Positions 26,273 to 51,236 of a DNA stretch of 63,694 nucleotides are shown piece after piece; within the stretch, counting starts at the first letter, position 1; each line of letters starts with the position of its first letter. The notes beneath the pieces are model-generated. The model saw nothing but the letters and a program-made list of their open reading frames with translations. It did not search any database and was not told the origin of the DNA. The stretch spans positions 1 to 63,694 of IMG/VR virus record IMGVR_UViG_3300030101_003495. One strand, written 5' to 3'. Both the position numbers and the translations under genes were made by a program. This DNA comes from a virus.

Positions 26273-29200
26273 ATGTACGAACTAGACGGTACTGAATATT
26301 CTATTGAAGAAATAGAAGAAGCTGCAGCTCAATCAAATCTTTCAGTTGAAGAGTATTTATCTGAATTTAATATAACTCAACCTGAAAAAGAAGTAAAGAC
26401 GCCAACCACAACTTCGGGTGCGGATGTGGTAGAAGAAATAGCACCCGATTTGGAATTAACATCGGTAGATACTTCATTGGAATTACCACCTGTTGAACCA
26501 ATTACATCTGTTAAAACAGGTACTGTAGCAGATACAACAATTGAAAAAGAAAGAGATTTAATTAGAGAACAAGATATTGTTAATGAATATAATAATATAG
26601 AAAAAGAAATTATATTTAATAATCCTGATTATACTCCTGAAGAAATTAAAGCTAATGTTGATAAAAAACAACGACTATTATTAGAAGAATTAGATACTTT
26701 TGATAAAGACATGCTATTAAATAGTGCTATTAATGTTAAAAATGATGTTAATAAAAGAATGCAACTTGATATAAGTCAAGCTAAAAATAATATTAATGAA
26801 ATACAAAATATAAAAAACAATTTAAAAGCAGCTATTGACAACGGTACGCCTTACTCTAAAGAACAAGAAAAAGAAATAATAGATAATCATAATGCTTTAG
26901 TTGAACAAACAAAGTTATTAGAGCAAAATATTATAAGAGATGCTGGTGTTATTGAAGATAAAAATAAATTTATAGATACTTTTAAAAGAAGTTATAGTGA
27001 AATAGATAGATTAACAAACTCTGTTCTTTCTGCAGGTACAGATATAGCTTTAGGCGCATTGCTTACTTTAGATATGGCTAAGGATGAAGAAGGAAAAGAA
27101 AAATCAATAAGCAAAGATTTATTATCTTATAGAGAAGAATTAGCTAGAATATCTGAAGAAGATTTAGGAAAAGCTATTGCTGTTGAAAACATTAGTGATC
27201 CTCAAGACGCTTTAAGATGGGCTGCTGATGGTTTAATTAATTTTGTTCCTTCCGGAGTTATGGCTTTTAGTGGTCCAGCAGCAATGCCTTTATTTTTTGC
27301 TAGCGGTTATGGTGGTCGTTTATCTGAGTTTGAGCTTGCTGATAAAAAAGCTGAAGAAGTTATACCTAAACTTGAAGCTCAATTAAAAGAAACTCAAGAC
27401 CCTTTATTAAAACAAAAAATATTAGAAGAAATAGAGTTTCACAATAAAGCTCTTAGCACCACTGATATGAAGAAATTTTTAACTAGTACTTTATATGGTG
27501 GTTATGAGGTTGGTACTGAGTGGCTTACTACTTTACAGTTAGTTAAAGGATTAAAAGGATTAAATGGTAGTAAAGCTTTAGAAACGTTTTATAAAGAAGC
27601 AGGTCAAGCTAGTTTTGGTAAAGCATTAGTTAATACAATTAAAGATCCTAAAGTATTAAAAACACTAGGACTAGGTACTTTAAGTGGGCCTATTGAAGGT
27701 GGTGGTGAGGGTTTAAATCAATTGTTAGGTAATATTACAGATATAACTTTAAACGATGCTAATGTTTCGGTGTTAGATGGAGTTGGAGAAGCAACCGCAC
27801 AAGGCGTATTAATAGGTAATGGGTTTGCTCTGGCTAGAGGTGCTCAAATAGCAAGAGCAGGTATGATGGATGTTATTGCTGATAAACAAACTAAAATAGA
27901 GTTAAATAAACTTTACGATGAAATACAAGGTCTTACATCTGATTTAAAACAAACAACAGACTCTAAGGTAAGAAAGCAACTTTATGATGTTATAAGAAAA
28001 AAAATTAAAGAATCTAACACAGTCCAAGATTACAGCGCTTCGGCGTTTATAAAATTAGATCCAAAAAAACAAAAAGAAGTTTTTGAATTAGATAGAAAAG
28101 CTACAAATATTAACAACAGATGGATAGAAATAGCTAAATCAAACGCTAGTGAAGCTACAAAAACTCAATTAAAAAAAGATTTATTAGAACAATTTAATAG
28201 TTTGCAAGGACAAAAAAGAACTATATTAAATAATTCTAATAGTTTAAAATTAAAAAATTTAGAACTTCCTGAAGGTTTAGTACAAGGAGATGTTGTAAGA
28301 AACCTTAAAAGAACTCAAAACAATTTATTATCTGTTGAACAAAATAATAAAAAAACAAAGTATTTAAACAAACAAATAACTTTTGCAAATAATGATTTAG
28401 AAAATATAAATAATTTTATTAATTCTAACGAAACAACTTTAACTCTTGAAAGTGGTAGTGTTATAAACAAAGAAGATGCATCAGAAATTATAAATATTAT
28501 AGCAGAAAACGCAGATGGTGGTTTTAATAAAAATAATAAAAATAGTTATATACATTTAGAAATGGCTGTTAGTGGAAATCCTGCAGCTCCAATACATGAG
28601 TATTTTCATGCTATGGGTAAAGATAATGCTTTTACTAAAGATCAATATGATAATATTAAAGATGATTTTTTAGACTTATTAAAAACTAAATTAAAAAATA
28701 AAGAAATAACTAAAGATCAGCACGATACTATTAAAAAAAGATTTAAACTATATGATGGTAGCCCTGCACAATCTGAAGAACTTTTAGCAATAACAGGTGA
28801 TGCTATAAATCTTGATATACTTTCTGAAGATGATATAACTTTTTTACAAAAATCAGCTTATAATATAAAGAAATTTGTAGCAGGTTTGATAGGTAAAGAA
28901 GAATCTGAGAATTTTGGTATTGATACAGCTGAAGATGCTTTTAGTTTACTGCAAAGTTTTCAAAGAAGTATAGTAAAAAATCAAGATATTAATATAAGAG
29001 CTAATGTTTTAGAGCCTACAGAACAACAAACAGATGATACAACTGTTTTATCTAGATCTACTTTATTTGAAGAAATAAATAAACTTGTTCCAGATAATAT
29101 TAAAACTAAAACAGAGTTTGATAATTTTGTACGTTCACCTGATGGAGCTAAGTTATTTAATGCCATATATAATGAAGGCGGAGCTATAAATAATTATATT

Positions 29201-32200
29201 AGACAAAGAGCTACTACTATAGAAGAGTCTCAAAAAATAATAGATAATACTATAGAAAGAGTATTAAACTTTAATCCTGAGAGTACAAGAGATGATGGTA
29301 GCGCAGTTGGCATTGAAGGTTTTACTGAAAGAGTAATGGCTGATACTAGATTTGCTAAGTTAGATGCTAAAAAAGATTTGTTTAAAGAATCTGAAAAAGC
29401 TAAACAAGAACAACAATTAGACTCACCACAAGCAGCTCAAGTTACTGCAGAAGAATCTGCAACAACTGAAACTACAAAAGAAAAAACATCTAAATTAAGA
29501 AGAGATTTAGGTATAAAACAAGGTGATGATCTTTATAATGCAGTAAAACAAACAGCTAAAGAAATATTTGGAAAAGATTTAGACAATGTAGAACTTAAAA
29601 AACTTAAAGCTATTGTAAATAAAAAAGCTAGAGGTAGTGAGTTGTTTAAAGATATAGCTAAATTAATGGGTACTGAAAAAGCTATAGATCAACAGTTTTT
29701 AAATAAAAATATATTAAATATTTTAAAAGATCTACCTGTTTCTGATTTAGTAAAATTAGAAAGAGGAACAAAAGGCGAAAAAATATTTACTAAAACTGGA
29801 CCTAGACTAGGACCAATTGCTGCTCGTGAAGCTGTTAACGAAGGCTTACTACCTAAAAATACTAATATTAATTCAGGGCCTAGAGTATCTGAAAAATTAC
29901 CTGTTACATTAGAACAAGCTAAAGAGTTTTTTACTCAAAAAAGAAAAGCAGGTCTTGTTGGTGTTATAGCAGAAAATTTAGTTGCCGATGCTGCTCCATC
30001 TGTAACTAAAGAAATAAAAACACCACCTAAAAGAAGAGCTGAAGTTTTAGATGTTATTGATAGAGATCCTGAATTAAAGTTTAGTAAAAGTTTAAGAAAA
30101 ATATTTAATCTTCCTTTAAAAGGTAGAAGTAAAGTTAATACTTTGTTAAAAGAGAAAGGATTAAATGAAACTTTGGATTTAAAAAAAGATATTCTTACTG
30201 AATCTGGTAGAAAAAAAATATTAGATAATTTTATATATATAATGACATTTGGCCCTAAAGATATGTGGTTTGGGCCTAGGGGTGGTTCTGTTTTTACAAC
30301 AAGTGGAAAAGACTACGATGTTAGCATGACTGAATTTAGAAAAGATGGATCTAAAAATCCTAAATGGACAAAAGAAAAATCAGACGCATTAAAAAAGCTT
30401 AGACAAGATTTAATAGATTATTCTAAATCTGATGATGCTGTTTTTGGAGAACCTATAAAAGGTGTTACTGATTATAAATTAAGTAGTTATAGTACATTAT
30501 TAGGTAATGCTAAAAACGCGGCTATTAAAAATAAAAATGGAGATATTAAATCGTTTAATAATAAAGTAAGTAAAATTCACAAAGAAATGTGGAGGCGATT
30601 TAATAATGCAATAAAATCTGATAAAAACAACGCTTCAAAAATAGGTACATATTTAAAACTTGTTGCTAATCATACTGGTCATTGGCATAAACTAGGTGCT
30701 CAAATAGTTGGCTGGTCTACTAGTCCTAAAGGTAAAAGTGGTACGTTATATGAATATGAGCATGCTATGCCTGCCACTGCTGCTTATTTATATTTATTAG
30801 ATACAGCTATTGATAAAGGTAATTTTGATTTATCATATCAAGCTGTTATGGATAATTATAAATTAATAGCGTTAGATAAAGCAGAAAATGCTAAACTAGG
30901 AAAAGCTGGTCTTTCTACAGGTATGCCACAAGGATGGTTTCTTGGTGATAATTTTTGGTGGCAAAGATATTTTAACCCTGAAGTAGGCGCTATTGAAGGA
31001 GGTATAACACCTAACTCTATAATGATGACTAATGGTAGAACAATGGGTAATCAACTTGGTGTAGACGCTATGGGTCGACGTACTAATCAAACAATAGAAG
31101 CTAGTAAAAAATTAGTATCTAAAATAAATAATAAAATATTACCTAAAAATTTACAATTAAAAGGAGATTTTACTAACCAAATGGTGTTAGATAAAATGGC
31201 TGAAGTTGATAATATTAATAAAGAAGAAGCGTTAAAGTTTAGTAAATCAGAAGATTTAAGTAAACAGTTTAATGATATAATAGAAAACAAAACTGGTATA
31301 GGTACCGACAAAAGATATGCTAAAGTAAAAGCTAAAGTTGCAGGTGCGGGTAAAGGTAAATTTAATTTCTTTGTACCACCATCAGCTGAAGACTTTGTAG
31401 GTTTATTATATAAAACTCTTGGTAAAGGTAAAACAGGTGATGCGCAAATGGCTTGGTATAAAGTTAATTTATTAGATCCTTTTGCAAGAGCCATGAATGA
31501 TTTAAATAGAGATAGATTAACTTTGTTAAATGACTACAAAGCGCTTAAAAAAGATCTTAAAATTGTTCCTAAAAATTTACGTAAAAAAATACCAGGTGAA
31601 CCATTTACTAGAGAACAAGCAGTAAGAGTATATATTTGGGACCAACAAGGTATGAGTATACCCGGGTTATCACAAACAGATTTAAAAGAATTAACTAAAT
31701 ATGTAAATGATAATGCTGATTTAAAAATATTTGGAGATCAATTGTTAGGTATAAATAAAGGAGATCCATATAATGCACCTAAAAATGAAGGTTGGACAGC
31801 TGGAGATATTTCTAGCGATTTATTAGAAGGTTTAAGAACAACTAAAAGAGCAAAGTATTTAGAACTTTGGCAACAAAATGTTGATCAAATATTTTCTGAA
31901 ACTAACTTAAATAAATTAGAGGCTGCCTTTGGTGAAGGCTATAGAGGTGCATTAGAAAATATACTTTACAGAATGAAAACTGGTAGAAACAGAACATTTG
32001 GTAAAGATGGTTTAGTAAATAGAGCCACAGACTGGTTGACAAATTCTGTTGGTGCTATTATGTTCTTTAACACAAGATCAGCTATACTTCAAACTATATC
32101 TTCTATAAACTTTATAAATTTTAGTGATAATAATATATTAGCAGCAGGTAAAGCGTTTGCTAACATACCTCAGTATAAAAAAGATTTTGTAAAATTAATG

Positions 32201-33322
32201 AACTCTCCGTTTTTATTAGCTCGTAGAGACGGTTTAAAAATGAATGTAAATGAAGCTGATATAGCTGATATGGCTAAAGATCCTGGTAGTATGGCTAGAA
32301 GATTTATAGCTAAAACATTAAGATTAGGGTTTTTACCTACACAAATAGCAGATAGTTTTGCTATAGCTTCAGGCGGTGCTACTTTTTATAGGAATAGAAT
32401 TAAAAAATATGTAAAAGAAGGTATGTCTGAGCAAGCCGCAGAAAAACAAGCTATGATAGATTTTACAGAAATAGCTGAAACATCTCAACAATCAAGTAGA
32501 CCTGATAAAATTAGTGAGCAGCAAGCTGGTGGTTTAGGGCGTGTTATATTAGCTTTTGCTAACACTCCAATGCAATATACCAGAGAGATTAAAAAAGCCG
32601 CTCTTGATCTTAAAAATGGCCGAGGAGATACAAAGACTAATATATCTAAGATTATATATTATGGCTTTGTACAAAACTTAATATTTAACGCTTTACAACA
32701 AGCTTTATTTGCATTAATGTTTGACGACGAAGAAGAGTTAACTAAAAAAGAACTAGAAAAGAAAGAAACAAAAGATCAAAAAAGATATTTAAGAATACTT
32801 AATTCTATGTCAGATCAATTTTTAAGAGGTATTGGCGTTGGTGGAGCTATTGTTTCTACTTTAAAAAATGCTACTATAAAATTATTAGAAAAAAGTAAAG
32901 AAAAAGAACCTGAATATGCTAAAAATGCTATCATTGAATTAGCACAAGTATCACCTCCTCTTGGTTCTAAGTTTAGAAAAATAAATAATGCAGCTAATGC
33001 TTTTGAATGGAACAAGGATGAAATGAAAGCAACAGGTTGGAGTTTAGATAATCCTGCTTATTTAGCTGGTGCTAATGTAATATCAGCAATGACAAACTTG
33101 CCTGCTGATAGAGTTGTTAAAAAAATAGACAACCTAAGAAATGCTAGCAATACAGATTTACAAATTTATAAGCGTATTGCTTCTGCTGGAGGTTGGAGTA
33201 GATGGGATTTAGATATTCCAGCACCTAAACTTCCAACTACTACTTCTAAAAAATTACGTAGAGTTAGTACTGGATTAAAAGGTGGTTTTAAATCAAGTTT
33301 AAAAGGAGGAAAATTAAAATAA
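26273..33322 (+). CDS. Giant internal virion protein with HExxH protease motif
   Basis: 2349 aa, the largest gene. N-terminus SIEEIEEAAAQSNLSVEEYL is a short module seen at the start of huge marine phage proteins. Residues 775-779 read HEYFH within PAAPIHEYFHAMGK, a zinc-protease HExxH; a following EELLAITGDA may supply the third ligand. Around residue 1490 there is an EYEHAMPATAAY segment. The C-terminal 700 residues are helical with weak hydrophobic helices, including ILAFANTPMQYTREIKKA, a conserved patch of ejected phage proteins. No RNA-polymerase motif (DxDGD type) was found. Probably ejected with the DNA, like T7 gp16, with its protease opening host barriers or maturing partners. Confidence 0.7.
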   Translation: MYELDGTEYSIEEIEEAAAQSNLSVEEYLSEFNITQPEKEVKTPTTTSGADVVEEIAPDLELTSVDTSLELPPVEPITSVKTGTVADTTIEKERDLIREQDIVNEYNNIEKEIIFNNPDYTPEEIKANVDKKQRLLLEELDTFDKDMLLNSAINVKNDVNKRMQLDISQAKNNINEIQNIKNNLKAAIDNGTPYSKEQEKEIIDNHNALVEQTKLLEQNIIRDAGVIEDKNKFIDTFKRSYSEIDRLTNSVLSAGTDIALGALLTLDMAKDEEGKEKSISKDLLSYREELARISEEDLGKAIAVENISDPQDALRWAADGLINFVPSGVMAFSGPAAMPLFFASGYGGRLSEFELADKKAEEVIPKLEAQLKETQDPLLKQKILEEIEFHNKALSTTDMKKFLTSTLYGGYEVGTEWLTTLQLVKGLKGLNGSKALETFYKEAGQASFGKALVNTIKDPKVLKTLGLGTLSGPIEGGGEGLNQLLGNITDITLNDANVSVLDGVGEATAQGVLIGNGFALARGAQIARAGMMDVIADKQTKIELNKLYDEIQGLTSDLKQTTDSKVRKQLYDVIRKKIKESNTVQDYSASAFIKLDPKKQKEVFELDRKATNINNRWIEIAKSNASEATKTQLKKDLLEQFNSLQGQKRTILNNSNSLKLKNLELPEGLVQGDVVRNLKRTQNNLLSVEQNNKKTKYLNKQITFANNDLENINNFINSNETTLTLESGSVINKEDASEIINIIAENADGGFNKNNKNSYIHLEMAVSGNPAAPIHEYFHAMGKDNAFTKDQYDNIKDDFLDLLKTKLKNKEITKDQHDTIKKRFKLYDGSPAQSEELLAITGDAINLDILSEDDITFLQKSAYNIKKFVAGLIGKEESENFGIDTAEDAFSLLQSFQRSIVKNQDINIRANVLEPTEQQTDDTTVLSRSTLFEEINKLVPDNIKTKTEFDNFVRSPDGAKLFNAIYNEGGAINNYIRQRATTIEESQKIIDNTIERVLNFNPESTRDDGSAVGIEGFTERVMADTRFAKLDAKKDLFKESEKAKQEQQLDSPQAAQVTAEESATTETTKEKTSKLRRDLGIKQGDDLYNAVKQTAKEIFGKDLDNVELKKLKAIVNKKARGSELFKDIAKLMGTEKAIDQQFLNKNILNILKDLPVSDLVKLERGTKGEKIFTKTGPRLGPIAAREAVNEGLLPKNTNINSGPRVSEKLPVTLEQAKEFFTQKRKAGLVGVIAENLVADAAPSVTKEIKTPPKRRAEVLDVIDRDPELKFSKSLRKIFNLPLKGRSKVNTLLKEKGLNETLDLKKDILTESGRKKILDNFIYIMTFGPKDMWFGPRGGSVFTTSGKDYDVSMTEFRKDGSKNPKWTKEKSDALKKLRQDLIDYSKSDDAVFGEPIKGVTDYKLSSYSTLLGNAKNAAIKNKNGDIKSFNNKVSKIHKEMWRRFNNAIKSDKNNASKIGTYLKLVANHTGHWHKLGAQIVGWSTSPKGKSGTLYEYEHAMPATAAYLYLLDTAIDKGNFDLSYQAVMDNYKLIALDKAENAKLGKAGLSTGMPQGWFLGDNFWWQRYFNPEVGAIEGGITPNSIMMTNGRTMGNQLGVDAMGRRTNQTIEASKKLVSKINNKILPKNLQLKGDFTNQMVLDKMAEVDNINKEEALKFSKSEDLSKQFNDIIENKTGIGTDKRYAKVKAKVAGAGKGKFNFFVPPSAEDFVGLLYKTLGKGKTGDAQMAWYKVNLLDPFARAMNDLNRDRLTLLNDYKALKKDLKIVPKNLRKKIPGEPFTREQAVRVYIWDQQGMSIPGLSQTDLKELTKYVNDNADLKIFGDQLLGINKGDPYNAPKNEGWTAGDISSDLLEGLRTTKRAKYLELWQQNVDQIFSETNLNKLEAAFGEGYRGALENILYRMKTGRNRTFGKDGLVNRATDWLTNSVGAIMFFNTRSAILQTISSINFINFSDNNILAAGKAFANIPQYKKDFVKLMNSPFLLARRDGLKMNVNEADIADMAKDPGSMARRFIAKTLRLGFLPTQIADSFAIASGGATFYRNRIKKYVKEGMSEQAAEKQAMIDFTEIAETSQQSSRPDKISEQQAGGLGRVILAFANTPMQYTREIKKAALDLKNGRGDTKTNISKIIYYGFVQNLIFNALQQALFALMFDDEEELTKKELEKKETKDQKRYLRILNSMSDQFLRGIGVGGAIVSTLKNATIKLLEKSKEKEPEYAKNAIIELAQVSPPLGSKFRKINNAANAFEWNKDEMKATGWSLDNPAYLAGANVISAMTNLPADRVVKKIDNLRNASNTDLQIYKRIASAGGWSRWDLDIPAPKLPTTTSKKLRRVSTGLKGGFKSSLKGGKLK

Positions 33323-44419: not shown

Positions 44420-44481
44420 AGGTTTATGGTTTATTCTCACTTATATAATTACATATAAATAAGATGATTTACATATATAAC

Positions 44482-45234
44482 TTACAGATATTCAATAACT
44501 TGCGAATGATCTACACTATCAATTAGCTTTTGAACAGCTTGCTTTTTAAGCTCAGAAACTCTGACATAACCGCTAGCTCCTTTTATATTAATTTGAGGTG
44601 CAATATCTTTGGCTGAATGTTTATCACAGTCAAGACCATAAGATAATCGTAACACTTCATATTCGCTTTCATTTAAGTGTTTTTTCATCAAGCTTTTTAA
44701 ATAACTATTTAATAACCCTATATTGTAGGGCTCAGATTGATCAGGTATTTGATAAATCATATCCTCATCATCTGTAAAAGACCTAGCATCTATGCTTAAA
44801 AATATACTATTAAAAAACATTTCTACCATTTTCTTGTCTTTAGGATTTCTACGCATATCATTGAGCTTATGTTCAGGTATACGTATATCACCTCGTTTTA
44901 TATCAATAGATCTACGAATAGCTCCTTTGATACGTTTAAAAAAGAAAGATTTTAAAGTCTTTTCTTGATCTTCTGATTGTTTTAATATATCATAATCTAA
45001 TTTATCAACAGCTTTTATAAGTCCAATTGAGCCTTCTTGTATTAAATCAGTAATATCAAGAACTCCACTCGCCTGCTGTGATGTAGAAAACTTACGAGCT
45101 ATATTCTCTACTAATGGTAAAAATCTTACAATTAAATCATCTCTACTGTCAAATATTAGATCATTGTAGTCTGGCATAGAAGCTTTGATATCTTCTTTAT
45201 ACCGAATATAATTTTTAATATTATATTTTTTCAT
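44482..45234 (-). CDS. Phage-encoded sigma-70-family factor
   Basis: 250 aa. Region 2: LVENIARKFS, DLIQEGSIGLIKAVDKLDYD, and SFFFKRIKGAIRRSID correspond to sigma regions 2.1-2.4. Region 4: LNESEYEVLRLSYGLDCDKH followed by the helix-turn-helix ASGYVRVSELKKQAVQKLI. Region 1.1 is absent and region 3 is short, as in group 3 factors. It should guide the host RNA polymerase to phage promoters, perhaps the four-copy module in this genome or late genes. It is overlapped by the HTH gene 45221. Confidence 0.85.
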   Translation of the reverse strand: MKKYNIKNYIRYKEDIKASMPDYNDLIFDSRDDLIVRFLPLVENIARKFSTSQQASGVLDITDLIQEGSIGLIKAVDKLDYDILKQSEDQEKTLKSFFFKRIKGAIRRSIDIKRGDIRIPEHKLNDMRRNPKDKKMVEMFFNSIFLSIDARSFTDDEDMIYQIPDQSEPYNIGLLNSYLKSLMKKHLNESEYEVLRLSYGLDCDKHSAKDIAPQINIKGASGYVRVSELKKQAVQKLIDSVDHSQVIEYL

Positions 45235-45847
45235 TGTCCTTATTTAAAAGTTCTTTTTCTCGTTTAAGATTACTACCCATTGTTCTATAAACAGTTCTAC
45301 TAGAACAATCTAGTAAGCCTGCTATTTTACCAATCGTAATCTTCTTACCAATATCATGTAACTCTAACATGCATTGATAGATCATCTCTTCATTTATTAA
45401 TCTATCTCGGCCTATTAATTGGCCTACGATACTTAACTTCTCTTTCATGGTTAAACCAGTAAAATCTTTAAATATAACTTTACGTAGTTTATTTTTAGGT
45501 GGTTGTTTAAGTTCTGTTAAAGTAACATCGTCAATCATATTAACTAAATATTTATCTAACATAGTGAACGTAACAAACCCGTTACTTTTTGTAGCTATAT
45601 GTCTAGCTAGCTCTTCAAACTCTTTAATAGAAAGTTGAGGATTTAAATACCACAGCACTAATAAGTGCCATTTAAGGGATCTAAAAGTATTTATCTTAGC
45701 TTTGCTTCTAAATAACTCATAGCATTCATGTGTGCCATATTTATAATAATAACCCCATTTATATACCTCTGTAGGTTTATCATTAATAGGATCACGCCGA
45801 TAAATTATCTTATGTTTATTTAAAAACTTAAGTCTTAAATGTGACAT
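45221..45847 (-). CDS. HTH DNA-binding regulator candidate
   Basis: 208 aa, basic. The C-terminal 40 residues contain a clear helix-turn-helix: KITIGKIAGLLDCSSRTVYR. The N-terminal part is Tyr/Trp/Lys-rich with KAKINTFRSLKWHLLVLWYL. The stop overlaps the sigma gene start by 14 nt, so the two are translated together; it could modulate the sigma factor, or bind the origin for replication. No named family. Confidence 0.6.
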   Translation of the reverse strand: MSHLRLKFLNKHKIIYRRDPINDKPTEVYKWGYYYKYGTHECYELFRSKAKINTFRSLKWHLLVLWYLNPQLSIKEFEELARHIATKSNGFVTFTMLDKYLVNMIDDVTLTELKQPPKNKLRKVIFKDFTGLTMKEKLSIVGQLIGRDRLINEEMIYQCMLELHDIGKKITIGKIAGLLDCSSRTVYRTMGSNLKREKELLNKDNEKI

Positions 45848-46447: not shown

Positions 46448-47292
46448 TCGTAGTTACGTATTGCTTTGAATAATGGGTGACGGTATGAACCTGATGGTGT
46501 GCGTTGGAAGTATGTAAATGTAGCTGTTTTGCCGATATACCACTCAGCTATATCGTACATCTCTTCGAGCATTGATTGTTTGCCCATAACAGGCATACCG
46601 AATTTAACACCGTTGGAATCTACAGCAAGGAACTTACCGATAGTACCGGTACGTTTACCTTGGCCTTCAACCCAGCCAACAATCGTAGCCTCTGTGTCGT
46701 GAAAGTCTTTGAACTTTTGTAGATTATAAGAACGTTTTTGTTCGTAAGGCTTGTTGTAACGTAGTATTGAGCCTTCATAGCCATCATTTAAGTTAAGTTG
46801 ATGGTTGTATTTTGCAGCATCTAAGCTGAGTACAGCTTGAAATGGCACTGATTTAGTATATTTAAGATCAAATAAATCAATGATTTCAGATATATCACAG
46901 CTGCGTTGATAGTATTTATCAGCTGGTATCATAGGGTTGAACATGTCATAACAGTGAAACTGCACGAGAGATTGTGCTTCGCTCATATCTATAAGCGTAG
47001 GTTTTTGCTTACGTACGAGAGATATTATCTTGTTAAAGTTATCTTTAAGCTTATGGTTGTATAGCTCACCATCGAGAATAATATCTGGGTATTTATGAAA
47101 GACATGTTCTAAATCCCTAAGTATATGGTCTATATTGTGAAAAGGTTTGTGGTTACGACTGAAAGCACCGGTTGATGTAATGTAACATCTTACACCGTCA
47201 AGCTTTGGCTGAATATAAGTATCAGACCAGTCGGTTTGTTTTTTGCCTACAGGATGTGCAAGCATGCACTCAAATTGTTTTTTGGTTTTCAT
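46444..47292 (-). CDS. ATP-dependent DNA ligase
   Basis: 282 aa, a minimal ligase with nucleotidyltransferase and OB domains only. Motif I is KLDGVR with the adenylated Lys30; further motifs DIILDGELY (III), DGYEGSILRYN (IV) and a LQKFKDFHDTEATIVGW (V) follow. It seals nicks during replication and recombination. GC and codon choice (more CGT, ACC, GTG) differ from the AT-rich small genes around it, hinting at a different source. Starts 4 nt inside the upstream coding sequence. Confidence 0.88.
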   Translation of the reverse strand: MKTKKQFECMLAHPVGKKQTDWSDTYIQPKLDGVRCYITSTGAFSRNHKPFHNIDHILRDLEHVFHKYPDIILDGELYNHKLKDNFNKIISLVRKQKPTLIDMSEAQSLVQFHCYDMFNPMIPADKYYQRSCDISEIIDLFDLKYTKSVPFQAVLSLDAAKYNHQLNLNDGYEGSILRYNKPYEQKRSYNLQKFKDFHDTEATIVGWVEGQGKRTGTIGKFLAVDSNGVKFGMPVMGKQSMLEEMYDIAEWYIGKTATFTYFQRTPSGSYRHPLFKAIRNYE

Positions 47293-47531
47293 ATATTATA
47301 TCGGTTTTTAATTGTGGTTATTTTCTTTTGTATTATACTAGCTTTTTCATATTCTTCATCAGCTTCATATCGTGACAATAGGTTATTAAGCCTATCTAGT
47401 TCCATTAGTATAAGATCTGTTTCATCAATAGAATTTGTTTTCATTTCACTAGAATATTCTCTAATAAAAGTTTCAACAACTTCTTTAGCAACTGCTTTAG
47501 CTATTTTATTTATTTCTTTATCGGTTAGCAT
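47289..47531 (-). CDS. UVR-like helical protein, 80 aa
   Basis: 80 aa. The end (LNNLLSRYEADEEYEKASII, then QKKITTIKNRYNI) resembles the UVR helical hairpin shared by UvrB, UvrC and McsA. The first half is a plain acidic helix. Its ATG lies only 8 nt from the GATAAT box of promoter copy 4, so the mRNA would be almost leaderless. Function unknown. Confidence 0.6.
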   Translation of the reverse strand: MLTDKEINKIAKAVAKEVVETFIREYSSEMKTNSIDETDLILMELDRLNNLLSRYEADEEYEKASIIQKKITTIKNRYNI

Positions 47532-47536
47532 GTGTA

Positions 47537-47570
47537 TATATTATCTATTTGTATTCGTATTTAGTTTGTA
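47537..47570 (-). promoter_or_regulatory. Early promoter module, copy 4
   Basis: On the minus strand TACAAACTAAATACGA (47570-47555) is followed after exactly 8 nt by AGATAATATA (47546-47537). The same 16-bp block, spacing and GATAAT box occur at 48193, 50491 and 50751. The layout fits a sigma-type promoter: TACAAAC as -35, GATAAT as -10, about 18 nt apart. Between tRNA gene and 47289-47531. Confidence 0.75.
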
Positions 47571-47572
47571 GT

Positions 47573-47644
47573 TGCGTGGGAAGGATTCGAACCTCCGACC
47601 TTTGGGTTATGAGCCCAACGAGCTGGCCACTGCTCTACCACGCT
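47573..47644 (-). tRNA. tRNA-fMet (CAT), initiator type
   Basis: Full cloverleaf of 72 nt. Anticodon loop CTCATAA gives CAT. Initiator features: D-stem GAGC/GCTC with an A11-U24 pair, three consecutive G-C pairs in the anticodon stem (GGGCTCATAACCC), and an unpaired first acceptor position (A1 against A72). T-arm GGAGG-TTCGAAT-CCTTC. CCA is not encoded. It follows the 47651 gene by 6 nt and may be processed from that transcript. An elongator Met or Ile2 tRNA is less likely because both normally have Y11-R24. Confidence 0.88.
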
Positions 47645-47650
47645 ATTTTT

Positions 47651-47989
47651 TTATCCAATAGGTAAATCGCCTCTGTATAATTCTTCGTAATCAACATCCA
47701 TATACCTAGGATCAGCCAATCCCATCATGCCGTGTAAAGTTTCAACATTAGATTTTATTGGCTCTCTGTAATCATCTGTTTCAATAAGTTTAGCTATGTA
47801 TTCCCATGTTTGTAAATCTGCTTGTAAGTGGTTTACACTTTTTTGTAACATTTCTACAGGCACAGAACCATTACCGCCTTCACGTATTTCTTTTTTAACT
47901 CTTTTTATATCGTCTTTGATATGTACTATCTTAGAAAAAGCCTTATTATGTGCTCTCTCTGACTTTTCTTCTATGCTTAGTTTGTTCAT
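47651..47989 (-). CDS. Coiled-coil early protein, 112 aa
   Basis: 112 aa. Residues 5-75 form a charged coiled coil (IVHIKDDIKRVKKEIREGGN, then MLQKSVNHLQADLQTWEYIA); the end is acidic with DPRYMDVDYEELYRGD. It ends 6 nt before the tRNA gene. No known family. Confidence 0.6.
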   Translation of the reverse strand: MNKLSIEEKSERAHNKAFSKIVHIKDDIKRVKKEIREGGNGSVPVEMLQKSVNHLQADLQTWEYIAKLIETDDYREPIKSNVETLHGMMGLADPRYMDVDYEELYRGDLPIG

Positions 47990-47993
47990 TTTA

Positions 47994-48188
47994 TTAATTC
48001 TTTATATATGTTAGTCCTTTGTAATTAAACCACTCTCTGATGCCGAAATCAGTTACAGCACCATCATCGGTTTCTATCTCTTTTTTAATATAACTAAAAG
48101 TAGGAGGTAAATCACCTAACATATAACCTTTATAGTTTATACCATTTAATTTAACTCTGTCTTTTGATATTTTTTTTATTGCATTCAT
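47994..48188 (-). CDS. Small early protein, GLTYI paralogue A
   Basis: 64 aa. LNGINYKGYMLGDLPPTF, later WFNYKGLTYIKN. The order K-L-N...G(F/Y)...L and the C-terminal KGLT(F/Y)I match the 67-aa protein at 50528, so the two are paralogues. The ATG lies 6 nt after GATAAT of promoter copy 3, which predicts a leaderless message. Function unknown. Confidence 0.65.
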   Translation of the reverse strand: MNAIKKISKDRVKLNGINYKGYMLGDLPPTFSYIKKEIETDDGAVTDFGIREWFNYKGLTYIKN

Positions 48189-48192
48189 GTAT

Positions 48193-48225
48193 ATATTATC
48201 TTTTTATTATCGTATTTAGTTTGTA
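48193..48225 (-). promoter_or_regulatory. Early promoter module, copy 3
   Basis: The 16-bp block TACAAACTAAATACGA (48225-48210), 8 nt, then AGATAATAT (48201-48193) on the minus strand. The TAA stop of the upstream gene (48216-48218) is embedded in the block. The downstream ATG follows GATAAT by 6 nt. Confidence 0.75.
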
Positions 48226-48347
48226 ATTTTTACTTTATTTACTAATAATTTAAGTCTTTTTTGTACTTGTGTACGAGATATTTTACCTTTTTCAAACTCA
48301 TTGATAAGATCGGACATATCTATGCCGTTATATATTGCTTTTATCAT
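48216..48347 (-). CDS. Small early protein, 43 aa
   Basis: 43 aa: MIKAIYNGIDMSDLINEFEK, then a basic helix RTQVQKRLKLLVNKVKITN. The stop codon falls inside promoter copy 3. ATGA-type overlap with the upstream gene supports translation. The IDMSDLINEFEKGKIS part resembles a short regulatory helix pair; function unknown. Confidence 0.55.
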   Translation of the reverse strand: MIKAIYNGIDMSDLINEFEKGKISRTQVQKRLKLLVNKVKITN

Positions 48348-48712
48348 GTTAAAATTTTTCTAGCTTGTTCATATTTTATATTTCCGTATTTATTTTTTTG
48401 CAGCACCAAATAATCTAGTAGTATTTGCATGTTTTTATCTGTATTATCAAAACCACCAACAGACCAAACAGTTAATTCTTTTAATGTATAATCTAAACTG
48501 TAAGTTTTCCAGTCATATATGGTAAATATATCACCATTTACTTTAAATATCCATTCACATTGTACTTTTTTATCATTTCCATCATAAAAAATAGTTGGAG
48601 GACCAACTCTTTTCATTATATCTAGATATGTCATATCTTCTAATGTACCTATTTTAAAACTACCGTTGGTATTTACAGCATCAGTAGTTATATATTTACT
48701 TATTTCATTCAT
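48344..48712 (-). CDS. Conserved phage hypothetical, TIYDWK type
   Basis: 122 aa from the ATG at 48712. Pattern: NTNGSFKIGTLEDMTYLDIM, RVGPPTIFYDGNDKKVQCEW then GDIFTIYDWK. I know this order (NTNGT..., GxP, xxEWxxxxxxxxFTIYxWK) from many phage hypothetical proteins with no assigned role. It overlaps the following gene by 4 nt and the preceding one by 8 nt. Confidence 0.65.
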   Translation of the reverse strand: MNEISKYITTDAVNTNGSFKIGTLEDMTYLDIMKRVGPPTIFYDGNDKKVQCEWIFKVNGDIFTIYDWKTYSLDYTLKELTVWSVGGFDNTDKNMQILLDYLVLQKNKYGNIKYEQARKILT

Positions 48713-49025
48713 GTTTATTTGCCATTTTTTTATATTCATTCATTTCTATTTCTTCTATTATATGTTCTAGTATTTCATGGTAATTTACTTCACAAATAAA
48801 AGCTCTTGCATAATCTTCAACTAAGCCTAAACTTCCATGATTTTCAAAAACACAGTTTTCAACAACCTCTTTTAAGTATTCTACAGTCGGAAGTTGCCCG
48901 CATTCTAAAAATTGTTGAGCAAAATCATGATCGCTTAATATTTCTAGGTTAATTCTCCAAGTGGCATAATTACTCCAGCCATTGCATTTATTGTCGTTTA
49001 AAGGTTCAAATTCTATTTGATTCAT
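48705..49025 (-). CDS. NGWSNYATW-motif early protein
   Basis: 106 aa. KCNGWSNYATWRINLEILSD at residues 13-32 is the hallmark of a small protein family common in phages and plasmids (DUF7249-like). The rest is acidic and helical (ENHGSLGLVEDYARAFICEV). Such genes are usually early and of unknown role; a few lie beside antirestriction genes. Confidence 0.65.
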   Translation of the reverse strand: MNQIEFEPLNDNKCNGWSNYATWRINLEILSDHDFAQQFLECGQLPTVEYLKEVVENCVFENHGSLGLVEDYARAFICEVNYHEILEHIIEEIEMNEYKKMANKHE

Positions 49026-49026
49026 A

Positions 49027-49275
49027 TTATCTTATTTTTTCGTCTATATATTCTAGTAATCTATTTTTATTATAGTTATCATCTTGATTTTCTATAATAT
49101 TTTCTATTTTATCAGCCATGCCAATAACCTCGTAAGCAAGATCTAGTATATCATAGAGGCCTTGCTGTTCATATTCTGATAATGTTTCGCCACAATCAGA
49201 ATTATGTAGCGTATCAACTACATCTTTTAAATCGGTTGCAGTATTTTCATACCTGCAATAACTCATATTTGCCAT
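49027..49275 (-). CDS. MSYCRYENT-motif early protein
   Basis: 82 aa. MANMSYCRYENTATDLKDVV at the N-terminus is a conserved start seen in many phage early genes; the remainder is acidic helix (TLSEYEQQGLYDILDLAYEV). It ends 1 nt before the start of the next gene. Role unknown. Confidence 0.65.
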   Translation of the reverse strand: MANMSYCRYENTATDLKDVVDTLHNSDCGETLSEYEQQGLYDILDLAYEVIGMADKIENIIENQDDNYNKNRLLEYIDEKIR

Positions 49276-49282
49276 TTTTTAT

Positions 49283-49399
49283 TTATTTTAGTGTTTCAAA
49301 TTCTTTTTTTAGCTGCATTAACTGTCTTCTGCTAGTTAAGCAAAATCTACTTTTTGTAGATAAATTTTTAATTCTATTTTTATAGTATGCTATTGTCAT
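49283..49399 (-). CDS. Small basic early protein, 38 aa
   Basis: 38 aa: MTIAYYKNRIKNLSTKSRF then SRRQLMQLKKEFETLK. Basic, helical second half. It begins 20 nt inside the upstream gene and stops 7 nt before the next ATG. Plausible small gene, unknown function. Confidence 0.5.
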   Translation of the reverse strand: MTIAYYKNRIKNLSTKSRFCLTSRRQLMQLKKEFETLK

Positions 49400-49568
49400 A
49401 TTTTTCAGCTAGTATTTTTTTACTCCATGTGCTTAAATAAGCATTATCATGCTCTATTACAATTTCTTCACATAAATCTTTAATTTCTTCAAGTTTATAT
49501 ATATCAGAGTCAGTTTTTTGTAACTGATCTGCAATTGCATATATTTTATATAGTTTTACTTTGTTCAT
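49380..49568 (-). CDS. Helical early protein, 62 aa
   Basis: 62 aa, acidic: KLYKIYAIADQLQKTDSDIY then KLEEIKDLCEEIVIEHDNAY, ending WSKKILAEKYDNSIL. Two or three amphipathic helices, no motif. Overlaps the next gene by 20 nt. Confidence 0.55.
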   Translation of the reverse strand: MNKVKLYKIYAIADQLQKTDSDIYKLEEIKDLCEEIVIEHDNAYLSTWSKKILAEKYDNSIL

Positions 49569-49587
49569 ATTTTATATTTTTCTTTTT

Positions 49588-49683
49588 CTATAGCTTTTCA
49601 GTATCTTCTTTTGATCTACCCATTTCAGCTTCCCACTCTTCATCATCAATGTACATACCTTTTTTATATTTATTTACCATCAT
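49588..49683 (-). CDS. Acidic 31-aa peptide
   Basis: 31 aa from the first of two adjacent ATG codons: MMVNKYKKGMYIDDEEWEAE then MGRSKEDTEKL. It overlaps the upstream ORF by 14 nt. Short but with a protein-like composition. Confidence 0.4.
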   Translation of the reverse strand: MMVNKYKKGMYIDDEEWEAEMGRSKEDTEKL

Positions 49684-49786
49684 ACCATTTATCTATTATT
49701 TGCTCATTAGTACTATCATCAATTAAATATATATATTTATTAATTTTAATGAATAGAACATCTTTGCTTTTAATATCTATTTTCAT
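49670..49786 (-). CDS. Small early protein, 38 aa
   Basis: 38 aa: MKIDIKSKDVLFIKINKYIY then LIDDSTNEQIIDKWYDGK. Alternating hydrophobic pattern typical of two beta strands. Starts 13 nt downstream of the tRNA-like element. Function unknown. Confidence 0.45.
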   Translation of the reverse strand: MKIDIKSKDVLFIKINKYIYLIDDSTNEQIIDKWYDGK

Positions 49787-49799
49787 AATTTTAATTTAG

Positions 49800-49901
49800 T
49801 GGACGTGGCAGGAATCGAACCTGCGTTAGTAATCATCGAGCCGTTTTTCGCATCCCGCTAAGGAATTACGCCTTTAATCATACTCTAACCATTTCACGCC
49901 C
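49800..49901 (-). ncRNA. tRNA-like element, 102 nt, identity unresolved
   Basis: Minus strand. A 7-bp acceptor stem (GGGCGTG/CACGTCC, one G-U) and a T-arm (GCAGG-TTCGATT-CCTGC) are both good, and A49800 is in the discriminator position. Between them lie 70 nt instead of the usual 40-56. AATGGTTAGAG looks like a D-loop but its 5' D-stem strand is missing. ATGATTA occurs twice (46 nt apart). Two weak anticodon arms are possible: AAGG-CGTAATT-CCTT lacks U33, and ATTC-CTTAGCG-GGAT has it (UAG). A pseudo-tRNA, a tRNA with an insertion, or a tRNA-like regulator are all open. Confidence 0.55.
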
Positions 49902-49956
49902 TTTTTGATAGTTCAACTTTATTTATAGTGGAGAGAACTAACAACGCCCACATTTT

Positions 49957-50097
49957 TTATAAATCTTCTTCTGTATAATCTAGCTTACATAAATCATACA
50001 GCCATTTTTTGTAATTTCTGTCTGATTCGAGTATTCTACCTGCTAAGTAAGATTCACGATCTAACCTTTTTTGTTTATCTTTTTTTAGTTTATTCAT
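49957..50097 (-). CDS. Small early protein, 46 aa
   Basis: 46 aa: basic start MNKLKKDKQKRLDRESYLAG, then RILESDRNYKKWLYDLCKLD and an acidic YTEEDL end. Helical. Stop lies 55 nt before the tRNA-like element. Unknown function. Confidence 0.5.
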   Translation of the reverse strand: MNKLKKDKQKRLDRESYLAGRILESDRNYKKWLYDLCKLDYTEEDL

Positions 50098-50105
50098 TTA
50101 CTTAA

Positions 50106-50225
50106 TTATTTTATATATTCGCCTTCTTGCCACTCTCCACATTCTTGGCATGATGAGTCGCATATTGTATATTGGTGGTATACTAATTCTGTACTACCAC
50201 AAAATTTACATTTAGTTTCTTCCAT
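50106..50225 (-). CDS. Zinc-ribbon-like small protein
   Basis: 39 aa with CKFC at residues 6-9 and CDSSCQEC at 22-29: two Cys-x-x-Cys pairs that can bind one zinc ion (ribbon). The rest is acidic (GEWQEGEYIK). Such mini zinc ribbons in phages bind nucleic acid or RNA polymerase. Starts 9 nt after the previous stop. Confidence 0.55.
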   Translation of the reverse strand: MEETKCKFCGSTELVYHQYTICDSSCQECGEWQEGEYIK

Positions 50226-50234
50226 TTAATTATT

Positions 50235-50480
50235 TTAACAATTTCTTTTTTCAAAGTTTTCTAGATATTTTAATCTATCGCATTCTCTTTCAATTAAAAC
50301 TCTTTCATATCTATATCCATAAGGATCATTACAATCAAACCAAAGTTTTACTTTTTTATTTATTTGATACATTCTATCATTTCCATTTATTCTTACATAA
50401 CCAGAATCAAAAATACTACCAATTCTATTATCATTTAATCTAAAAAACTTTCCAGTTTTTGTTCTTTTAATTAATTTCAT
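50235..50480 (-). CDS. Small basic early protein, 81 aa
   Basis: 81 aa, basic. KRTKTGKFFRLNDNRIGSIF then YVRINGNDRMYQINKKVKLW suggests a small beta barrel; the end is helical (LIERECDRLKYLENFEKRNC). Directly downstream of promoter copy 2, with a 16-nt leader after GATAAT. Unknown function. Confidence 0.6.
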   Translation of the reverse strand: MKLIKRTKTGKFFRLNDNRIGSIFDSGYVRINGNDRMYQINKKVKLWFDCNDPYGYRYERVLIERECDRLKYLENFEKRNC

Positions 50481-50490
50481 TTTACTTATT

Positions 50491-50527
50491 TATTATATTA
50501 TCTTTATTGTTTCGTATTTAGTTTGTA
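50491..50527 (-). promoter_or_regulatory. Early promoter module, copy 2
   Basis: TACAAACTAAATACGA (50527-50512), 8 nt, then AGATAATATAATA (50503-50491) on the minus strand. It begins at the very base after the stop of the upstream gene and lies 11 nt before the ATG of the 50235-50480 gene. Confidence 0.78.
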
Positions 50528-50731
50528 TTAAATGTATAAGTTTTTTAATTTATTTTTATTTATAAATGTTAAACCTTTATTATTAAAATCATATTCTAAA
50601 TTATATAATTTATATTCAATTAATTCATTTAATTTAAAACCAATAAATGTTTGATTATTTATTTTTAGTTTTTTATTTGGTATTAATTTTGACTCATAAT
50701 GTTTTGTTTTAAGTCTAAATATATTTGCCAT
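50528..50731 (-). CDS. Small early protein, GLTFI paralogue B
   Basis: 67 aa. KLKINNQTFIGFKLNELIEY and YDFNNKGLTFINKNKL are the same building blocks as in the 64-aa protein at 47994. First gene of the leftward early region, 20 nt downstream of promoter copy 1. Very AT-rich. Function unknown. Confidence 0.65.
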   Translation of the reverse strand: MANIFRLKTKHYESKLIPNKKLKINNQTFIGFKLNELIEYKLYNLEYDFNNKGLTFINKNKLKNLYI

Positions 50732-50750
50732 AGTAATTATTTTATTTGTT

Positions 50751-50787
50751 TATTATATTATCTAATACACATCGTATTTAGTTTGTA
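50751..50787 (-). promoter_or_regulatory. Early promoter module, copy 1
   Basis: TACAAACTAAATACGA (50787-50772), 8 nt, then AGATAATATAATA (50763-50751) on the minus strand. It stands at the edge of the divergent intergenic region and would drive the whole leftward early block. Identical block and spacing to copies 2-4. Confidence 0.8.
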
Positions 50788-51236
50788 AAAAGGTGTATAA
50801 ATATTTATTTATAAAAATAGTTTGAATAGTATTGCGCATGACATAATGACATATAAAAGTATTTATAGTGACAATTTGTCATATTATAATAAAAATATAT
50901 AATGTATAGGTCAAAAACCATGCCAAACTAGTTGTCCATGACAAAAAGTCATAACATTGGATGACATGTTGACCAGTAAAAGCCAAAACATTTACGGTAA
51001 AATCTAAAAAACAAAGGCCGGTGGGCCAAAACCAAGTCAATCTGGTAACACGTTGGTAATCAGCTAGTTAGGGTATAATACTTTACTCCTATATATCTAA
51101 CGCAAAAAGTGTGACAATAGGTAATTAGGCTAAGAATAGTAACAGGCAACTGTCACATTATTACAATTACATGCTTTTACGTAAAAATACCGCGTTTCGT
51201 GTAAGTATATATAGTATACACAAACAATAAAAACAC
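50788..51236. other. Divergent intergenic region, origin/regulatory candidate
   Basis: About 450 nt without any convincing gene, the longest non-coding stretch of the genome. It separates leftward early genes from rightward fibre genes. Besides TGACA repeats (own entry) it contains TTTTACGTAAAA (a perfect 12-bp palindrome, 51175-51186), TTTAC-g-GTAAA (50991-51001), and AT-rich tracts before the first plus-strand ATG. It is the best place for a replication origin and divergent promoters. A 69-codon antisense frame at 51130-51339 has no protein-like features. Confidence 0.65.
50839..51156. repeat. TGACA/TGTCA repeat cluster
   Basis: Copies of TGACA or its complement at 50839, 50847, 50869, 50877 (inverted), 50939, 50962, 51112 and 51151 (inverted). 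Some form dyads: TGACAA-t-TTGTCA (50869-50881), ATGAC-aaaaa-GTCAT (around 50938-50952), and GTGACA (51111) with TGTCAC (51151). Such a cluster fits iterons or operator sites for a phage regulator. Confidence 0.6.

Follow-up and report, generated by a model that had tools for sequence, protein, structure and literature searches.

The virus record IMGVR_UViG_3300030101_003495 of IMG/VR, analysed here over its whole length of 63,694 nucleotides (hereafter the window), contains on its minus strand four exact copies of a module, TACAAACTAAATACGA-N8-AGATAATAT, one ahead of each of four small open reading frames (ORFs). We propose, with a probability of about 0.6, that this module, called E below, is an early promoter used by the host RNA polymerase together with an extra factor, and that the sigma factor encoded by the phage then serves a second promoter class, called M/L. 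The plus strand of the window encodes the terminase, the portal and other virion proteins, and the minus strand the replication genes. For the portal and the terminase, the closest named proteins come from Flavobacterium phage elemo, Cellulophaga phages and Maribacter phage Panino. The E-bearing lineage probably consists of uncultured phages of 60–70 kb that infect marine and freshwater Flavobacteriia.

The chance expectation of the module is 0, as no match was obtained in 100 dinucleotide shuffles, and a search allowing up to three mismatches revealed no further copy in the window besides the four exact 33-base matches. An earlier note on this DNA had described four copies with a fixed 8-base gap, each preceding a small gene. 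All of this was confirmed, although some of the ends that it gave overrun the motif by 1–4 bases; exact positions are given in Table 1. ORFs were called mechanically, here and in all other genomes.

The same note had proposed a motif search over this genome and its relatives. When run, it found the module hundreds of times in IMG/VR, with the exact pattern present in at least 119 stretches and 515 E sites in 82 sigma-bearing genomes; these records are metagenomic and often fragments, and counts across related genomes are not independent. A weight matrix detected 478 sites of the form seen in the window (class I, see below), spread over 105 of 135 sigma loci; 3.6 Mb of shuffled DNA yielded no site. 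Nearly all of them (474 of 478) lie on the same strand as the sigma gene, and 452 of these 474 are at most 10 kb upstream of it.

The geometry of the module is rigid. Among 271 unique exact 16-mers of relatives, 259 were followed by GATAAT at the identical offset and none by GATAAT at any other offset within 45 nt, a count that is partly preselected because some of these sequences had been retrieved through the full pattern. In the subset fetched with the 16-mer only, GATAAT was found at the expected offset in 91 of 101 cases and at another offset in none. The sites are also largely intergenic: 20 of 515 were located within an ORF of 80 or more amino acids on the same strand, versus 315 of 515 random positions, so that a random placement within genes of relatives, which the earlier note had named as evidence against a promoter, is not what was observed.

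Finally, a start codon lies exactly 6 nt past GATAAT at 77 of 496 sites, versus 2 sites at 5 nt and 6 sites at 7 nt. Combined with the usual distance from a -10 box to the start of transcription, this spike would place the A of AUG at +1. GATAAT would then be the -10 box, and many early mRNAs would be leaderless. Leaderless mRNAs represent 5.5% in Flavobacterium psychrophilum (PMC9723704). The intergenic position, the single strand, the fixed geometry and the start-codon spike 6 nt past the predicted -10 box all favour a promoter, as first suggested. That the module is some other element of the DNA or the RNA, for example a processing site or a regulator site, is very improbable, since position, strand and spike suit a promoter; moreover, an Rfam scan of the window detected tRNA and no other element.

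Information content drops to 0.1–0.2 bits in the flanks, versus 1.3–2.0 bits at most motif positions, and the sigma proteins of the 82 genomes are just 46–99% identical in pairs. Because the flanks are nearly uninformative and the sigma proteins this divergent, the motif is, judging from these comparisons, maintained through selection and not by recent descent. The base preceding GATAATA is typical of each genome (within-genome entropy of 0.50 bits, versus 1.41 after permutation); at a control position of the spacer the values were 1.38 and 1.47 bits. A trans-acting reader differing from genome to genome would best explain this pattern.

GATAATA and the geometry are constant, and it is the upstream block that varies among genomes. 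Sigma loci seemingly devoid of the motif contain block variants of identical geometry, and the 9 of 50 sigma records initially regarded as motif-free are largely such variants or cut contigs. The blocks fall into class I (TACAAACTAAATACGA, with several sub-forms), class II (CACGGACTTA, which lacks TACGA), class III (TCGAAAnnTAATACGA) and class IV (nATAAGnTTGACACGA). At least three E promoters are present at 67 of the 68 sigma loci having at least 6 kb of upstream DNA. Conversely, the sigma gene is present in each of the 30 E-bearing records that are 59 kb or longer, and the 10 E-bearing records without it are all shorter. On the sigma tree, class III forms one clade, whereas class II requires at least three changes and class IV two changes, among close sigma relatives. 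Sigma regions 2.4 and 4.2 are unchanged where the block class changes. The class fits the virion module better than it fits sigma, a match that could reflect host range or a virion-borne factor.

PHROG and Pfam assign the product of the sigma gene to the sigma70 type, and a sequence-profile search of the PDB and a search with the predicted fold both matched sigma70 chains. Directly past this gene and ahead of the late operon lies the second promoter class, GTAAA-N14-TGTRA-TTATA, of which the window holds exactly two elements (Table 1). An M/L element is found between sigma and Erf at 85 of 128 loci, 82 of them with a gap of exactly 14, where 0.2–1.3 were expected, and it occurs there in block classes I, II, III and IV alike. 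M/L elements are enriched downstream of sigma (89 versus 6.2 expected) and not upstream (11 versus 8.8 expected). In the five relatives without sigma, they are absent or at chance numbers, and E is absent.

Table 1. Positions of promoters, genes and tRNA-related features in the window.
Feature	Position	Strand	Description
E promoter 1	50755..50787	-	TACAAACTAAATACGA-TGTGTATT-AGATAATAT; ahead of ORF 50528-50731 (67 aa); 25 nt from end of GATAAT to ATG
E promoter 2	50495..50527	-	TACAAACTAAATACGA-AACAATAA-AGATAATAT; ahead of ORF 50235-50480 (81 aa); 16 nt from end of GATAAT to ATG
E promoter 3	48193..48225	-	TACAAACTAAATACGA-TAATAAAA-AGATAATAT; ahead of ORF 47994-48188 (64 aa); ATG 6 nt past GATAAT, predicted leaderless
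E promoter 4	47538..47570	-	TACAAACTAAATACGA-ATACAAAT-AGATAATAT; ahead of ORF 47289-47531 (80 aa); 8 nt from end of GATAAT to ATG
M/L promoter	44449..44472	-	GTAAA-N14-TGTAA, in sigma–Erf interval; may be a middle promoter dependent on sigma
M/L promoter	51181..51204	+	GTAAA-N14-TGTAA(GTATATA), ahead of first late (structural) gene
Phage sigma factor	44482..45234	-	250 aa; sigma70 regions 2 to 4; phrog_351 (8e-21), Sigma70_r2
Helix-turn-helix (HTH) protein	45221..45847	-	208 aa; overlaps sigma start; weak HTH_7/HTH_23; C-terminal HTH in predicted model
Giant virion protein	26273..33322		2349 aa
tRNA-Met gene	47571..47644		3' end directly abuts start of E promoter 4
tRNA-like stretch	49800..49955	-	Intergenic; ends in tRNA-like T-arm and acceptor (GCAGGTTCGATTCCTGCCACGTCCAC)

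Because its two elements do not vary where sigma does not, we infer that M/L is the class read by the phage sigma. Comparison with known phage sigma factors points the same way. The proven promoters of the phage 7-11 sigma read GTAAtg-(16)-aCTA, and those of phiEco32 tAATGTAtA (PMC8948821). They share with M/L a GTAA element, a fixed spacing and a place ahead of middle and late genes, and the TGTAATTATA of M/L recalls the phiEco32 sequence. On the other hand, spacing and -10 sequence differ, the hosts belong to another phylum, and the E block resembles neither of the two.

With M/L assigned to sigma, E would be the early promoter used ahead of it. GATAATA would serve as the -10 element, bound by a sigma-type domain on the RNA polymerase, with transcription starting about 7 nt further on and many early mRNAs beginning at AUG. 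The 16-bp block would span about -37 to -22, its sequence being dictated by a trans-acting reader that varies by genome. E promoters would drive the small early genes and an operon whose last genes encode the HTH protein and sigma. E would probably be read before sigma exists, the reader being the host RNA polymerase aided by a factor at the block that comes from the host or from the virion. Sigma would then most likely take the host core polymerase to M/L, located directly behind the gene of sigma itself and ahead of the structural operon. A more elaborate two-step programme can be imagined, in which a virion-borne or pre-existing factor steers the host RNA polymerase at infection via the long genome-specific block, blocks are swapped upon a change of host, and the rare host genes with a block are induced by infection; it is speculative, and we think it distinctly unlikely.

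For the reader of E, the earlier note had offered either the host polymerase with the phage sigma factor or an activator site over the -35 position. The second idea, an activator or extra factor on the block, is plausible. The first, in which the phage sigma would direct the host core polymerase to E, assisted by a helper protein at the block, in a self-amplifying early or middle programme, is disfavoured and appears unlikely. It would require sigma before its own gene is expressed, and a single sigma reading both GATAATA and TGTRATTATA, which is itself unlikely. In addition, the E block switches class while region 4.2 is unaltered, whereas M/L, which begins right past the sigma gene, keeps both elements constant and is thus the better target. 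It is true that sigma and E are linked almost perfectly in both directions, relatives without sigma also lacking E, but this co-occurrence applies equally to M/L. The constancy shared by GATAATA and sigma region 2.4 also speaks for sigma, as does the fact that no host-type promoter able to start the early operon was found in the divergent region of the window. An attempt to link sigma to E by covariation of residues was discarded, the mutual information being confounded by kinship.

Several observations weigh against the programme proposed here. The absence of both E and M/L from relatives without sigma is also compatible with a sigma that reads both. The assignment of M/L to sigma is based on position, constancy and analogy. 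When the base before GATAATA was analysed by nearest neighbours, sigma ranked first, barely over other gene families. Among the sense-strand class I sites, 22 of 474 sit downstream of sigma, within about 5 kb. Last, no candidate emerged for the block reader, as the HTH protein, the early gene families and the giant virion protein all fail to track all the classes.

E could alternatively mimic a class of host promoters, read by the host polymerase when joined by an alternative sigma or a regulator of the host, the block classes corresponding to different hosts. We regard this as possible, if doubtful. The better fit of the class with the virion module than with sigma agrees with it, and so do the exact copies found ahead of host genes in a few Flavobacteriia with small genomes, three of which (G145, G146 and G229) have a related small secreted protein behind the copy. 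Yet matches with at most two mismatches are rare in host genomes (7 of 300 Flavobacteriaceae and 3 of 396 Flavobacteriales, some of them binned phage DNA), too few for a host regulon to explain E, and none of the motif-bearing host genomes tested has a sigma clearly resembling that of the phage. Exact or near-exact copies in Flavobacteriia chromosomes (L467, L468, L469, L471, L476) precede a TerB-like gene and genes of small secreted proteins; such host genes are possibly switched on by infection.

The known host promoters do not account for E either. Promoters of the primary sigma in Bacteroidota (TTTG / TAnnTTTG; PMC6847099, PMC9723704) share with E a two-element, AT-rich structure and genes without Shine-Dalgarno sites. 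E differs from them by its 16-bp upstream block and by the invariant GATAATA in place of the TAnnTTTG expected at -12 to -5 for sigmaA; where TTTG or TTG (-33) should stand, it has TACAAA, CACGGA, TCGAAA or ATAAG. In phage intergenic DNA, TAnnTTTG is not enriched (52 observed versus 62.8 expected), and GATAATA is found 59 times in the phages where 20.3 were expected. None of the six promoter motifs in the start-site map of F. psychrophilum resembles GATAATA (PMC9723704). The contrast with the usual Bacteroidota promoter drawn in the earlier note is thus supported.

A long conserved block with rigid spacing is typical of phage RNA polymerases, and AATACGA-N9-G resembles the T7 promoter. A phage enzyme without recognisable sequence match, injected or newly made, might read E, and for several large virion proteins no family could be assigned. 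In phage P23-45 the virion polymerase is fused to the tape measure (PMC10770324). We nevertheless consider this highly unlikely. The likeness to T7 is confined to that motif, TACGA is wholly missing from class II, and no single-subunit RNA polymerase family was found among 29 proteins scanned with PHROGs, several large ones being without family match. The giant virion protein was inspected as a candidate virion polymerase of the crAss-like or N4 kind. Its C-terminal third is conserved, whereas phages of some groups share a similar central region and between other groups this region is unrelated. The central region had seemed promising as specific to the block class, but the protein was rejected, as class I phages have three unrelated central regions beside the same block and no catalytic motif was detected: a conserved DxDxD is absent across 11 giant proteins, and Pfam gave no match above the cut-off.

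Other candidates for the block reader fared no better. The HTH protein is absent in class III, but its sequence fails to track the other classes. Family 5, which is SSB-like, gave a partial Mantel correlation but is a single-strand binding protein. Among the early gene families, only the DNA ligase, which class II lacks, and families that are small or clade-specific follow the class. Neither MotA nor AsiA was named when some of the proteins were scanned against PHROGs and Pfam, no dedicated profile search having been made.

The T4 middle promoter combines a MotA box with a sigma70 -10 box (sigma appropriation), the protein-bound block replacing the -35 element. E likewise has a predicted -10 box plus a block at the -35 place, but its block and spacing are different, and close relatives can differ in block class. 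T4 early promoters are many, strong and extended, and stand ahead of small early genes. E promoters are similarly numerous, each before small early genes. Unlike those of T4, which follow the host sigma70 consensus, they depart from the known consensus of their hosts.

The neighbourhood of these elements shows further features. The HTH protein overlaps the sigma start in 131 of 136 loci. It is present in all 12 sigma-holding class II records and in none of the 16 class III records, 7 of which contain sigma; in the class III relatives, sigma directly follows the ligase or another gene. This loss is suggestive, yet it was probably one event because class III is a single clade. The ATP-dependent DNA ligase common to most relatives was found in none of the 16 early regions of class II (L323, L322 and L399 among them), versus 66 of 82 others. 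An E promoter beginning at a tRNA 3' end, as in the window, was also seen in several relatives. The tRNA-like stretch, called neither by ARAGORN nor by Rfam, is perhaps a degenerate or interrupted tRNA. One record of about double the usual size (G061, L021/L345; 129537 b) contains two distinct sigma genes and could be two phage genomes joined together.

Bacteroidota hosts use an unusual primary sigma, and no like promoter signal for their phages was found in the open-access PMC literature. Two predicted promoter classes are now available for a large family of uncultured phages, many of whose early genes are predicted to be leaderless. The natural series of block variants provides a route to finding the block reader, and E marks early genes, likely involved in host takeover, in metagenomic contigs.

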